From assembly GCF_008389435.1 (NCBI RefSeq), contig NZ_VUYS01000004.1:62001-126000 (forward strand): a DNA stretch of 64,000 nucleotides, in the 5' to 3' direction. The stretch is from Candidatus Nitrosocosmicus agrestis (GTDB lineage: Archaea > Thermoproteota > Nitrososphaeria > Nitrososphaerales > Nitrososphaeraceae). Shown here in pieces: positions 49,728-57,284 of this stretch. A model generated the notes under the pieces. It was not told where the DNA came from. It ran no database searches and saw only the letters and a program-made list of their open reading frames with translations. Within the stretch, counting starts at the first letter, position 1. Every line of letters begins with the position of its first letter. The position numbers and the translations under genes were made by a program.

Positions 49728-51527
49728 TCACAGGTCCTTGCAAAAGAAACTGTTTTTCAAAATCTCTTTATCGCTTATCTTACCGAAGAAGTTACAAACT
49801 CCCTTAGTATTGTGAGGTTTGTTGTTTGATAATGTATCTTTTATATCCTTTGAGGATTTAATGGTGTTGTCTACATCAGCGGGATTTTTGATTATGTCTG
49901 TTACAATATTCTCAATTGTCTTAGGTTGAACTATTATTGTTACACTGTCAGGTTGACTCTGCATACCATGATCATTTAGTACTACAAGCTGGAATGTAAT
50001 GGTGATGCTATTTTCTGTTGTTCTCGGAGCTACGAAAGTAGGTTTTACTGCAGCCGAATCATCTAAAATGACATTTGGTCCCGTCGTTTGAGTCCATTGA
50101 AAAGTCAAAGGAGAGTTAGTAGGATCTGTGCTGCCACTGCCATCTAGCTGGACACTATCTCCACTAGATACAGTTTGATCAGTTCCTGCGTTTGCTGTAG
50201 GGATAGTAGAAACAGGATTGACATTTATCGTTACACTGTCAGGTTGACTCTCAACACCATTTTCGTTTCTTACAACGAGTTGGAATACTATGACATTTGT
50301 TGATTGTAAAGCTGGAGCTGAAAATGAAGGATTCATCGATGTAGAATTATCCAGAGTAACTAATGGACCAGCTGTTTGAGTCCATTGAAAAGTCAAAGGA
50401 GAGTTAGTAGGATCTGTGCTGCCACTGCCATCTAGCTGGACACTATCTCCACTAGATACAGTTTGATCAGTTCCTGCGTTTGCGGTGGGTGTAGATGAGG
50501 TAGTTCCAAGTACAAATACAGTGTCGGTATCGGATTCTGCATCATTTGTTCCGTACATATCATTATTATAAGGATTATAAACTATTCCTAGAGGTGCATT
50601 TCCAACATCCACTGTTTCCAACACAGTATTTGTTGAACCATTTATTATCGATAATTCAAATGGTAAACCCCAATCAGTGACATACATATTGCCATTGTCA
50701 GGATTATAAGAAATTCCTCTCGGACTGTTCCCAACAGGTATATTACCAATTACTGTATTATCAGATGAATCAATTAATGCGACAGAATCTTTATTCTGCA
50801 TTGCTAAGTACATATTGCCATTGTCAGGATTATACGCAATTTCTTGTGGAAGACTACCCTCAGGAAGAGGAATATATTGAATAACAGAATTTGAAGAACT
50901 ATCAATAACTGCGACTTCGTCATCTCCGAATGTTGATGTTACATACATATTGCCATTGTCAGGATTATAAGCAATATAATTAGGGTGTTTACTATCTATA
51001 GGAGCACCTAGCGTAATATTTTGTATTACTGTATTGGTATCGCTGTCAATAACAGATACAGTACGGCTATCATGAACAGCTACATACATATTGTTATTTT
51101 CGGGATTAAATATAATGCCTTGAGGTTGTTTTCCTACTTTTATAGTATCTATTACTTGATTTGTAGAGCCGTCAATCACAGAGACACTTCCATTCTCTTC
51201 GGGAAAAATCGTATCAGAATTTGTAACGTATATGTCCCCATTATCAGGGTTGTATGCGACGTCATCAGGATCATTTCCAACTGCGATAGTATCTATTACT
51301 TGATTTGTAACACTGTCAATCACAGATACGTCATTAGAATCAAAATTCGTTACATATACATAATTATTATCAGGGTTAAAAGCTAGATTCTTAGGTCCAT
51401 CCCCTACAACAATAGTATCAATAACCTCTTCCGCAAGCACATTTTGAAGAGAGTGTAAAAAGCATATTATAGACAAACTTCCAAAAATGATCAAAGACAA
51501 ATACTTGACATTATCTAAATTCATCAA
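49728..51527 (-). CDS. Exported YVTN beta-propeller protein with two PKD/REJ-type domains
   Basis: A 599-residue surface protein. After a signal peptide (YLSLIIFGSLSIICFLHSLQ) come about seven YVTN-type blades (residues 30-340), each reading like VIDTIAVGNDPDDVAYNPDN then GDIYVTN. Two Ig-like PKD/REJ domains follow (about 350-440 and 445-530), each starting TANAGTDQTVSSGDSVQLDG and running through FQWTQT. The C-terminal 60 residues are charged, with Cys near the end (FFCKDL). Such proteins mediate adhesion or cell-surface interactions in archaea. No enzymatic motif is present. ATG 51527. Its broken relative lies at 56533. Confidence 0.88.
   Translation of the reverse strand: MMNLDNVKYLSLIIFGSLSIICFLHSLQNVLAEEVIDTIVVGDGPKNLAFNPDNNYVYVTNFDSNDVSVIDSVTNQVIDTIAVGNDPDDVAYNPDNGDIYVTNSDTIFPEENGSVSVIDGSTNQVIDTIKVGKQPQGIIFNPENNNMYVAVHDSRTVSVIDSDTNTVIQNITLGAPIDSKHPNYIAYNPDNGNMYVTSTFGDDEVAVIDSSSNSVIQYIPLPEGSLPQEIAYNPDNGNMYLAMQNKDSVALIDSSDNTVIGNIPVGNSPRGISYNPDNGNMYVTDWGLPFELSIINGSTNTVLETVDVGNAPLGIVYNPYNNDMYGTNDAESDTDTVFVLGTTSSTPTANAGTDQTVSSGDSVQLDGSGSTDPTNSPLTFQWTQTAGPLVTLDNSTSMNPSFSAPALQSTNVIVFQLVVRNENGVESQPDSVTINVNPVSTIPTANAGTDQTVSSGDSVQLDGSGSTDPTNSPLTFQWTQTTGPNVILDDSAAVKPTFVAPRTTENSITITFQLVVLNDHGMQSQPDSVTIIVQPKTIENIVTDIIKNPADVDNTIKSSKDIKDTLSNNKPHNTKGVCNFFGKISDKEILKNSFFCKDL
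50086..50483. repeat. Near-identical 110-bp repeats within the PKD/REJ domains
   Basis: Bases 50086-50195 and 50374-50483 are the same sequence except at the very ends, far more alike than the rest of the two domains. This points to recent duplication or gene conversion. Three copies of a TTGCCATTGTCAGGATTATA-type string near 50690, 50817 and 50950 show the same in the propeller part. Confidence 0.8.
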
Positions 51528-54448: not shown

Positions 54449-55522
54449 CTAAGGCTTAGCCTCAAAGACCAAGTTGAATGGGGTTTGAGTAGCCTTTCGA
54501 ACGTTAGAAAAACCTGCCGATTTTATTAACTCTTTTATTCTTTGCTCACCTGCTTGTGCTCCAAGACCTGGACCACTTTCGTTTAAAGATGCAGGAACGC
54601 ATACCACAGAAGATACCGAGTAAAATACCCTACCAAGTGGATTTAAATTGTCCTCTAGTCTATCATTGGCAAAAGGTTCCACTATCATCAATGTACCGTT
54701 TCTTTTTCTTAGAGTTTGGAGGACATATTTAGCAGCCCCTGTGGGATCGCCCATATCATGGAAGCAATCAAAGAACGTAACCAAGTCATAGTCATCCCCT
54801 GGATAGTTCGTGGAGTTTGCTACCTCGAATTCTACATTCTTCAATCCTTCTTTTTCAGATTCCCTTCTTGCCCATTCTATTGACGGTCTATGAGAATCAA
54901 ATCCTATGATTTTTGAGTTAGGATATGCTTTTGCCATCAGAATTGATGAAGCACCGTGTCCACAGCCAACATCCGCTATTTTAGCTCCTCCCTTCTTAAG
55001 ATTGGATTCTACATTTTCAAGCGAAGGAATCCAGCTATTTATTAAATTAGCTACATAGTTTGGTTTAAAGAATCTCTCTGTTCCTTCAAAAAGATAATGG
55101 TGATGATCTCCCCATCCAAGACCTTTTCCAGTTTTAAATGCTTGAATAATTTTTTCCTCGTCCTTGAAAAGACTAACTAAAGACTGGTAAAAACCTATTA
55201 CATATGCAGGACTGTTTTCATCTGTAAGTGCCAAAGCATGCTCATCAGGCAATAAATATGTACTATTATCAGGATTATAAACAACGTAACCTCCGGCTGC
55301 TTGGCCTGCGAGCCATTCTTTTATTATACGTGGATGTGTTCCAGTTTTATGTGCTAGTTCTTCGGATGTCAATTCACCTGCTCCTGTCATCGCTTTGAAC
55401 AATCCCAACCTATCTCCAATGAAAGTTATCAATACCCCTTCTGCTCCACCCCAATCGCTTACAACTTTTCCAATAAATTCATTGAGTTTTTCTGAATTAA
55501 TTTTAGATAATAAATTACTCAT
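54449..55522 (-). CDS. SAM-dependent methyltransferase with N-terminal winged-helix dimerisation domain
   Basis: A 357-residue enzyme. Residues 20-100 form the dimerisation/winged-helix domain typical of small-molecule O-methyltransferase-like families (GELTSEELAHKTGTHPRIIK and EWLAGQAAGGYVVYN). The Rossmann domain has motif I IADVGCGHGASSILMA, the acidic residue in IIGFDSHRPS, VANSTNYPGDDYDLVTFFDC and FANDRLEDNLNPLGRVFYSV. It lacks the clear catalytic His of plant-type O-methyltransferases, so the reaction is open. Its promoter region is shared with a ribbon-helix-helix regulator and contains two identical operator-like palindromes (55527-55581). The start is ATG 55522. Very likely repressed by that regulator. 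Confidence 0.88.
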   Translation of the reverse strand: MSNLLSKINSEKLNEFIGKVVSDWGGAEGVLITFIGDRLGLFKAMTGAGELTSEELAHKTGTHPRIIKEWLAGQAAGGYVVYNPDNSTYLLPDEHALALTDENSPAYVIGFYQSLVSLFKDEEKIIQAFKTGKGLGWGDHHHYLFEGTERFFKPNYVANLINSWIPSLENVESNLKKGGAKIADVGCGHGASSILMAKAYPNSKIIGFDSHRPSIEWARRESEKEGLKNVEFEVANSTNYPGDDYDLVTFFDCFHDMGDPTGAAKYVLQTLRKRNGTLMIVEPFANDRLEDNLNPLGRVFYSVSSVVCVPASLNESGPGLGAQAGEQRIKELIKSAGFSNVRKATQTPFNLVFEAKP

Positions 55523-55526
55523 AACT

Positions 55527-55581
55527 ATGCTATCACACTAGCATTATTTAAAGATAGCTAATTATGCTAGTGTGATAGCAT
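55527..55581. promoter_or_regulatory. Double palindromic operator between methyltransferase and RHH regulator
   Basis: ATGCTATCACACTAGCAT at 55527-55544 is repeated in perfect inversion as ATGCTAGTGTGATAGCAT at 55564-55581. Each unit is itself an inverted pair ATGCTA/TAGCAT with a 6-base spacer. So four ATGCTA half-sites flank a TATTTAAAG core that can serve as TATA element for both genes. The left unit ends 5 bases before the methyltransferase start. Ribbon-helix-helix proteins bind such short half-sites as tetramers. Confidence 0.9.
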
Positions 55582-55610
55582 TTATATTTATATCAGTTGC
55601 ATAATAATTA

Positions 55611-56282
55611 ATGACGCATACTTTAGTAATTCGCGGGTTTGATCATGACACCCACTCACAACTAGGAGATCTATCCAGACAAAAAGGGGTATCCATAAAT
55701 TCCATGGTAAAAGATGCAGTAGATCAGTGGCTTCAAAAACAAAAGGAAATTCCAAAGAGACATCATATGATACTTTATGATGATGATAAAGCAATGATCC
55801 GATTGTTAAAATCGATTAATAAGTTCACACATGGTAACGACAAATGGTTCAAATGTTTTATACCATCCTCGTCAAATAAAAAATTTGAAAAGATATTGAA
55901 AGATCTGAATTGGTATGATATTGATAGTGATGGTGCACAGCACAAATCCGAACAAAAAGACCTCATGAAATACTTTAGTACTGTTTTGCATAGTATTATA
56001 AAAAAGTCTAAAAATAAGGAATTATGTTGTATTGACTTTCTTCTTAATGACATAGCAAAGCATGACATTAAGGAAACAATTGAGATTGAAAGAGCATACG
56101 ATCAAAATAAACTGGAAGGTCTCGTATTTTGTCCATACAAAATAAAGGACCTGACAAATTCATCTATATTTGATATTATAGCGTTATTTGATTCTCATCA
56201 ACAGATATTCATAGTGAATGGTGATGAATTGTATAAATTATATGTAACCAAAGAAAGTATTCACAAGCTGTTTTTAGGCTAG
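55611..56282 (+). CDS. Ribbon-helix-helix regulator with C-terminal sensor-like domain
   Basis: A 223-residue regulator. Residues 1-45 form a ribbon-helix-helix domain: a strand HTLVIRGFDHDTHSQL, then LGDLSRQKGVSINSMVKDAV. The remaining 170 residues are an alpha/beta domain (HHMILYDDDKAMIRLLKSIN, LCCIDFLLNDI, DIIALFDSHQQIFIVNGDEL), similar in style to the MEDS sensor domain but not proven. It starts with ATG 55611, 30 bases after the right-hand operator unit, so autoregulation is likely. Signal unknown. Confidence 0.82.
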   Translation: MTHTLVIRGFDHDTHSQLGDLSRQKGVSINSMVKDAVDQWLQKQKEIPKRHHMILYDDDKAMIRLLKSINKFTHGNDKWFKCFIPSSSNKKFEKILKDLNWYDIDSDGAQHKSEQKDLMKYFSTVLHSIIKKSKNKELCCIDFLLNDIAKHDIKETIEIERAYDQNKLEGLVFCPYKIKDLTNSSIFDIIALFDSHQQIFIVNGDELYKLYVTKESIHKLFLG

Positions 56283-56532: not shown

Positions 56533-57284
56533 TCAGTTATTGTCTGACAAAATATCTCTTAATCTATCAGCAGAATCAATAGAGTTGGTTACATTTAGCG
56601 GGTTCCTTAAAATTCCTGTGATTTCGTCACCGAGTGTTCTTGACTCATCGTTTTCAGAAGTGTTGATTCGAAGAGGATTTACAGTTATCTTAACTTCATC
56701 AGGTTCGCTAGTATTACCTTCTTCATCTGTCACAAGCAGGCTAAAAGTAATTTCTGATTGCTCAGCTGTCCTAGGAGCAGTAAATGTCGGATTTGGAGAT
56801 GCTTGGTCATTCAAAGTTACTCTGGGACCACCTGTTTGAGTCCATTTATAGGTTAGTGAATCTTCTGATGAGTTCGAACTACTATTGCTACTGCTACCAT
56901 CCAGTCTAACTAAGCTACCACTATCTACTGTCAGATTAGGTCCTGCATCAGCTGCAGGTCCAATAATTATAGTAGAACTACTTATCACTGATACTGTATC
57001 TGAGCCACTATTCGCTACATACATTCTATTGTTACCAGGGCTGTATTCTAAATCGTAGGGCCAGTCACCCACATCTATGGTTTTAACCACCTTATTGGTA
57101 GCACTATTTATTACAGACACGTCATGTGAGTATAAATCTGCTACATAGGCATATTTGTTAATAGGATTGTATTCCAATGTAACTGGAAAGTCAACCTACA
57201 TCTATGGTTTTTATTACAGATTGAGCCCATGTTGTATGAAAGTCTAATAAACCAAAAGTAGCAAAAGAAGATATCAAAATCATC
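56533..57284 (-). pseudogene. Frameshifted YVTN/PKD surface protein
   Basis: From ATG 57284 the frame reads a signal peptide (MILISSFATFGLLDFHTTWA, then QSVIKTIDVG) and hits TGA at 57193. One frame over, starting GDFPVTLEYNPINKYAYVAD, the protein continues through two YVTN blades, one PKD/REJ domain (VRLDGSSSN, YKWTQTGGPRVTL) and a charged end to 56533. A single extra T in GGTTGAC accounts for it. Compared with the 599-residue relative at 49728 it has far fewer blades. Either a decayed gene or an assembly slip at one base. Confidence 0.78.

Follow-up and report, generated by a model that had tools for sequence, protein, structure and literature searches.

Within the window, the analysed stretch of 64,000 nucleotides from a soil ammonia-oxidizing archaeon, an 88-bp gap separates a methyltransferase gene on the minus strand (54449-55522) from a ribbon-helix-helix (RHH) gene on the plus strand (55611-56282). 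The first is predicted to encode a SAM-dependent methyltransferase with an N-terminal winged HTH, similar to Rv2258c and TnmJ, according to its Pfam matches (Methyltransf_31, 1.4e-18; HTH_65, 2.7e-15) and its full-length PDB matches (TnmJ 8g5s, 8.8e-44; 5f8c, 3.2e-42), the name Rv2258c being taken from the Pfam description of HTH_65. The second is predicted to encode its divergent partner, a one-component regulator of 223 aa made of an RHH domain (residues ~1-45) and a MEDS-like domain (~49-223). Proteins with beta-propeller repeats (judged YVTN-like by eye) and PKD-like repeats flank the locus (49728-51527 and 56533-57177 (-)).

The interior of the gap is largely taken up by two putative operator units of 18 bp, O1 (ATGCTATCACACTAGCAT, 55527-55544 on the plus strand) and O2 (55564-55581), which is the exact reverse complement of O1. 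The original prediction had described an 88-base divergent promoter region holding two 18-bp units in exact inversion, and both the placement and the inversion proved right. The units are not the perfect palindromes it claimed, as 12 of 18 positions pair in each, the outer ATGCTA/TAGCAT pairing and the inner TCACAC remaining unpaired. Further matches to the unit with up to 3 mismatches were not found in the 64,000-nt window (none vs 0.08 expected), and the exact 18-mer occurs in its own genome at this locus alone. Exact inverted copies are a feature of the window (55527-55581) from which the nearest relatives differ, and this suggests recent homogenisation or constraint.

Each unit adjoins a predicted TATA box. 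The TATA-like core already reported between the units is real, although its identity could be made more precise: it is the predicted box of the methyltransferase promoter (TTTAAATA, 55545-55552, minus strand) and abuts O1, and a second TATA, that of the regulator (TTATATTT, 55582-55589, plus strand), directly follows O2. The centres of both boxes are located ~26 nt from the ATG of their respective genes and, therefore, leaderless transcripts are predicted on both sides. In a profile of 56 aligned loci, TATA signals were found at -9..-2 from O1 on the divergent strand and at +4..+11 after O2 on the regulator strand, and the methyltransferase TATA is kept in all three homologous gene pairs. In this arrangement O1 is placed between the TATA and the start of the divergent gene, and O2 occupies, across the unit-aligned loci, the place expected for the BRE of the regulator gene. 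With 20 bp between them, the units may leave just the room that the divergent TATA and BRE need, which would explain the fixed spacing.

The operator was followed across 72 distinct regulator upstream regions collected from homologue searches, a paired 16-bp unit being called above the 99% level of 2160 dinucleotide-shuffled upstream regions. A two-unit operator was present in 60 of the 72, with a spacing of 36-39 bp in 58/60 loci, and in 50/59 loci a distance of 4-6 nt separated the outer edge of O1 from the start codon of the divergent gene. This recurrence of paired units at a fixed geometry supports the proposal of an operator shared by both genes and the suggestion that the switch is likely autoregulated. 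The remaining 12 loci comprised four with two weaker units, four with a single unit, which invariably lies 30-34 nt from the start of the regulator, and four without; three of the latter (L048, L115 and L128) are genuine family members in which a recognisable unit is absent, and the fourth (L133) is an unconvincing member. In one locus (L012) a single unit is apparently common to both promoters, with TATA boxes on either side. Among relatives with the same gene pair, in which the repeat had been expected to be conserved, the units are kept in 3/3 cases (this genome, G006 and G012); the outer parts of the units and most of the intervening core are conserved among these three homologous pairs and the inner bases vary.

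The majority of units across the relatives consist of an 8-bp near-palindrome present twice in tandem, the commonest form being TGATATCA, with a box consensus of TGATATCA or TGCTAGCA. In the window, O1 can be divided accordingly into TGCTATCA (55528-55535) and CACTAGCA (55536-55543), of which the second departs from the consensus, and O2 into TGCTAGTG (55565-55572) and TGATAGCA (55573-55580). The four half-sites first proposed are thus four elements indeed, but since relatives show each unit as two tandem 8-bp boxes, their natural reading is as four boxes. Tandem palindromic boxes of 8 bp resemble the met boxes of MetJ. That the inverted repeat forms a hairpin, as a terminator, an RNA switch or a cruciform, instead of serving as a protein site was also considered, the 88-nt strand folding at -19.3 kcal/mol (z -5.5). 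This reading was rejected as extremely improbable in view of the divergent promoter position of the repeat, the direct as well as inverted arrangements of the same boxes found among relatives, which a hairpin would not tolerate, and the result that no terminator-like site was called at the 88-bp gap. In addition, neither predicted leaderless transcript would include the repeat, because it lies upstream of both predicted starts.

The search was also run in reverse. The exact paired pattern was present in 14 of 400 genomes, and 13 of the 14 sites were located 33-50 bp upstream of an independently found regulator; the fourteenth stops 4 bp short of the end of its contig. With the reversed control pattern, no sites were obtained in the same 400 genomes. 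The regulator-operator module is real with high probability, and the paired site almost certainly belongs, as judged from sequence, to the neighbouring RHH regulator.

Of 400 genomes of the class, 66 had a match to the regulator family, and nearly all of these were Nitrososphaerales; its 34 named contigs are all from Nitrososphaerales archaea by title (one being a 'Nitrososphaeraceae bacterium'), with the closest homologues on Candidatus Nitrosocosmicus contigs. As far as searched, the family is almost wholly confined to Nitrososphaerales. At E up to 1, the N-terminal RHH was matched by FitA-like RHH in 25 of 26 members and by ParG in 24 of 26 (best ParG 2.7e-6), the own match of the window protein falling below the cut-off in the Pfam scan; no match to the MetJ family was obtained in Pfam and NCBIfam scans of the regulator. 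In the AlphaFold model, the two RHH helices are present, the strand (residues 1-8) is of low confidence, and the C-terminal domain adopts an alpha/beta fold with a mean pLDDT of 81, for which the top Foldseek matches include PH0250, Elp456, FlaH and KaiC (E 5.6e-5 to ~1e-3, TM 0.4-0.5). Walker A is absent, no GxxxxGK being found in the regulator sequence, and a search of predicted viral structures gave weak, generic P-loop-type matches alone.

Pfam MEDS (PF14417) was absent from the window protein and from the 25 most frequent families of the 26 members, and the C-terminal domain was not matched by a smaller MEDS profile of 4 sequences. The alignment of 65 regulators with 30 true MEDS segments by hhalign, on the other hand, reached a probability of 94.9% (E 4.7e-8, 138 columns), compared with 0.3-0.9% for unrelated controls. 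The profile search that had been proposed for the C-terminal domain (MEDS or other) hence succeeded with the deeper profile, and the combination of an RHH with a sensor-like domain, as originally described, agrees with the RHH matches in most members and with this alignment. On profile and model evidence, the C-terminal domain is a diverged MEDS-like domain of the KaiC fold; MEDS was named among the inactive KaiC-like domains in an earlier survey (PMC5847659). True MEDS proteins are expanded in Nitrososphaeraceae: one genome (G025) has as many as 18 matches, and stand-alone proteins of ~200 aa are numerous among them. Literature searches yielded no account of RHH-MEDS proteins or this operator.

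At the N-terminus (MTHTLVIRG), residues 4, 6 and 8 match the pattern of the base-contacting residues Lys18, Val20 and Arg22 of AmrZ (PMC3325190); as in AmrZ, the contact residues would then occupy every other strand position, the last being Arg. No variation at Arg8 was seen in the regulator alignments, the box G is almost as constant, and the box type shifts along with strand residues 4 and 6. Such covariation is no more than supportive of DNA binding by the strand. H6 regulators pair with TGGTACCA boxes, D4/F6 regulators with AGATATCT and V4/Y6 regulators with TGCAAGCA; those with T4 and V6 or S6 have mostly TGCTAGCA boxes, and those with D/N4 and I/L6 mostly TGATATCA, L025 (T4/V6, mostly TGATATCA) being an exception. 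A tree-based test of this link contained at most 6 tree pairs, with which a sign test is unable to reach 0.05. Because few events are independent, a strand code for the box sequence, consistent in direction, is offered as a hypothesis and not as a proven code.

The genes found across from the regulator encode OsmC-like proteins, SAM methyltransferases, MGMT-like proteins (PF01035), ArsR-type HTH proteins, alpha/beta hydrolases or small ORFs, and a regulator tree built without the strand residues requires the partner to have changed at least 12 times, the operator being retained. Since the divergent partner varies, the operator follows the regulator and not the methyltransferase, and since OsmC, MGMT-like, ArsR-type and hydrolase genes occupy the same slot, the switch is not tied to methylation in particular, as opposed to the unknown methylation for which it was initially thought to serve. 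By these gene comparisons, a regulator and site module recurs among these archaea beside different enzymes, mostly of chemical-stress or methylation kinds. The HTH_65 domain of the methyltransferase could in principle make this enzyme's winged HTH, or another factor, the protein that binds the operator in place of the RHH protein. However, the same operator precedes regulators partnered with OsmC, MGMT-like, hydrolase and ArsR-type genes, the box sequence varies with the RHH strand residues, and HTH_65 domains of Rv2258c/TnmJ-type methyltransferases are thought to serve dimerisation, which together make such binding very improbable. In five loci, the first divergent gene is an ORF of 51-63 aa, followed by OsmC in L033, L042 and L049 and by a methyltransferase of Rv2258c-like look in L058 and L060.

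The locus would then probably function as an autoregulated one-component switch, with the divergent gene repressed at O1 and the regulator's own promoter controlled via O2. In the switch that we infer, including binding by the regulator, its tetramer stoichiometry, the direction of regulation and the ligand, each unit would be bound by two RHH dimers on its two tandem 8-bp boxes, as the box structure and RHH precedent suggest. Regulator bound at O1, between the methyltransferase TATA and the leaderless start, would block recruitment of RNA polymerase, so that repression at O1 is likely; TrmBL1 bound downstream of the TATA inhibits this recruitment and activates when bound upstream (PMC4706686). 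At O2, the regulator would take the TFB site upstream of its own TATA and thereby control, and most likely repress, its own gene. Release from the DNA would follow when the MEDS-like domain senses a small molecule. The enzyme across from the regulator is exchangeable, the operator staying with the regulator.

Because an archaeal site upstream of a TATA can activate, O2 may activate rather than repress. The switch would then be of dual mode, O1 repressing the divergent gene and O2 activating the regulator promoter by recruitment of TFB/TBP, resulting in positive autoregulation. The location of O2, which immediately precedes the regulator TATA and takes up the BRE position, is compatible with such a role, as are the activation by TrmBL1 from upstream sites (PMC4706686) and the compensation of a weak BRE by TFB-RF1 (PMC5937170). 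O2, however, overlaps the BRE itself and is not upstream of it, which favours occlusion, and RHH proteins are mostly repressors (PMC3325190), so that activation from O2 appears rather unlikely.

The proposed switch shares with the RHH repressors MetJ, Arc, CopG and AmrZ the RHH strand that, by analogy, would be set into the major groove, the likeness to MetJ being limited to the box layout. It differs from them in being archaeal, in having a pair of units, spaced by 37 bp, across two divergent promoters and in its fusion to a MEDS-like domain, not to another known sensor. Like DcmR and other MEDS regulators, the protein would combine a DNA-binding domain with a MEDS-type sensor in one component, and the H-x-x-x-x-Y and C-x-Y motifs are common to both; here, unlike in these regulators, an RHH replaces the HTH and the domain is below Pfam MEDS detection. 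TrmBL1 and TFB-RF1 also use palindromic sites downstream or upstream of the TATA for repression or activation, but they belong to an unrelated protein family, and in the present case both positions are filled in one compact divergent promoter.

The MEDS link and the partner set (OsmC, MGMT-like, methyltransferases and hydrolase) would suggest small reactive or alkylating compounds as ligands. A lineage-wide modular stress-sensing RHH-MEDS system of ammonia-oxidizing archaea, in which a cassette with an evolving strand code is repeatedly re-coupled to detoxifying or repair enzymes and senses reactive or alkylating molecules, perhaps via the conserved Cys174 of the MEDS-like domain, is a more speculative extension and is put forward with considerable doubt. 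To our knowledge, predicted binding sites are available for few transcription factors of these archaea, and a whole regulator family now comes with a predicted operator, geometry and partner genes. Together with the readable link between strand residues and boxes, this makes RHH specificity directly testable, and likewise the nature of what is sensed by MEDS domains, a question of long standing.

The genome-wide search for a regulon, recommended at the outset, returned a local answer only. Within the genome of the window, unit pairs spaced by 37-39 bp are restricted to three family loci (C4, C11 and C12), with a second unit pair adjoining the C4 gene, and no genome-wide regulon emerged; beyond these loci, near-limit single-unit matches are scattered, the reversed control giving about half as many. 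A third family regulator of this genome, on C4 (G000:C4:8889-9595; L127, L139), is broken by a TAG after ~37 residues, and its two operator units and divergent OsmC gene persist, so that this OsmC gene may be derepressed. A second paired operator with 37-bp spacing is located downstream of the interrupted regulator (G000:C4:9660-9712; L139:2661-2713) and precedes a small ORF, seemingly like the divergent ORF of L014.
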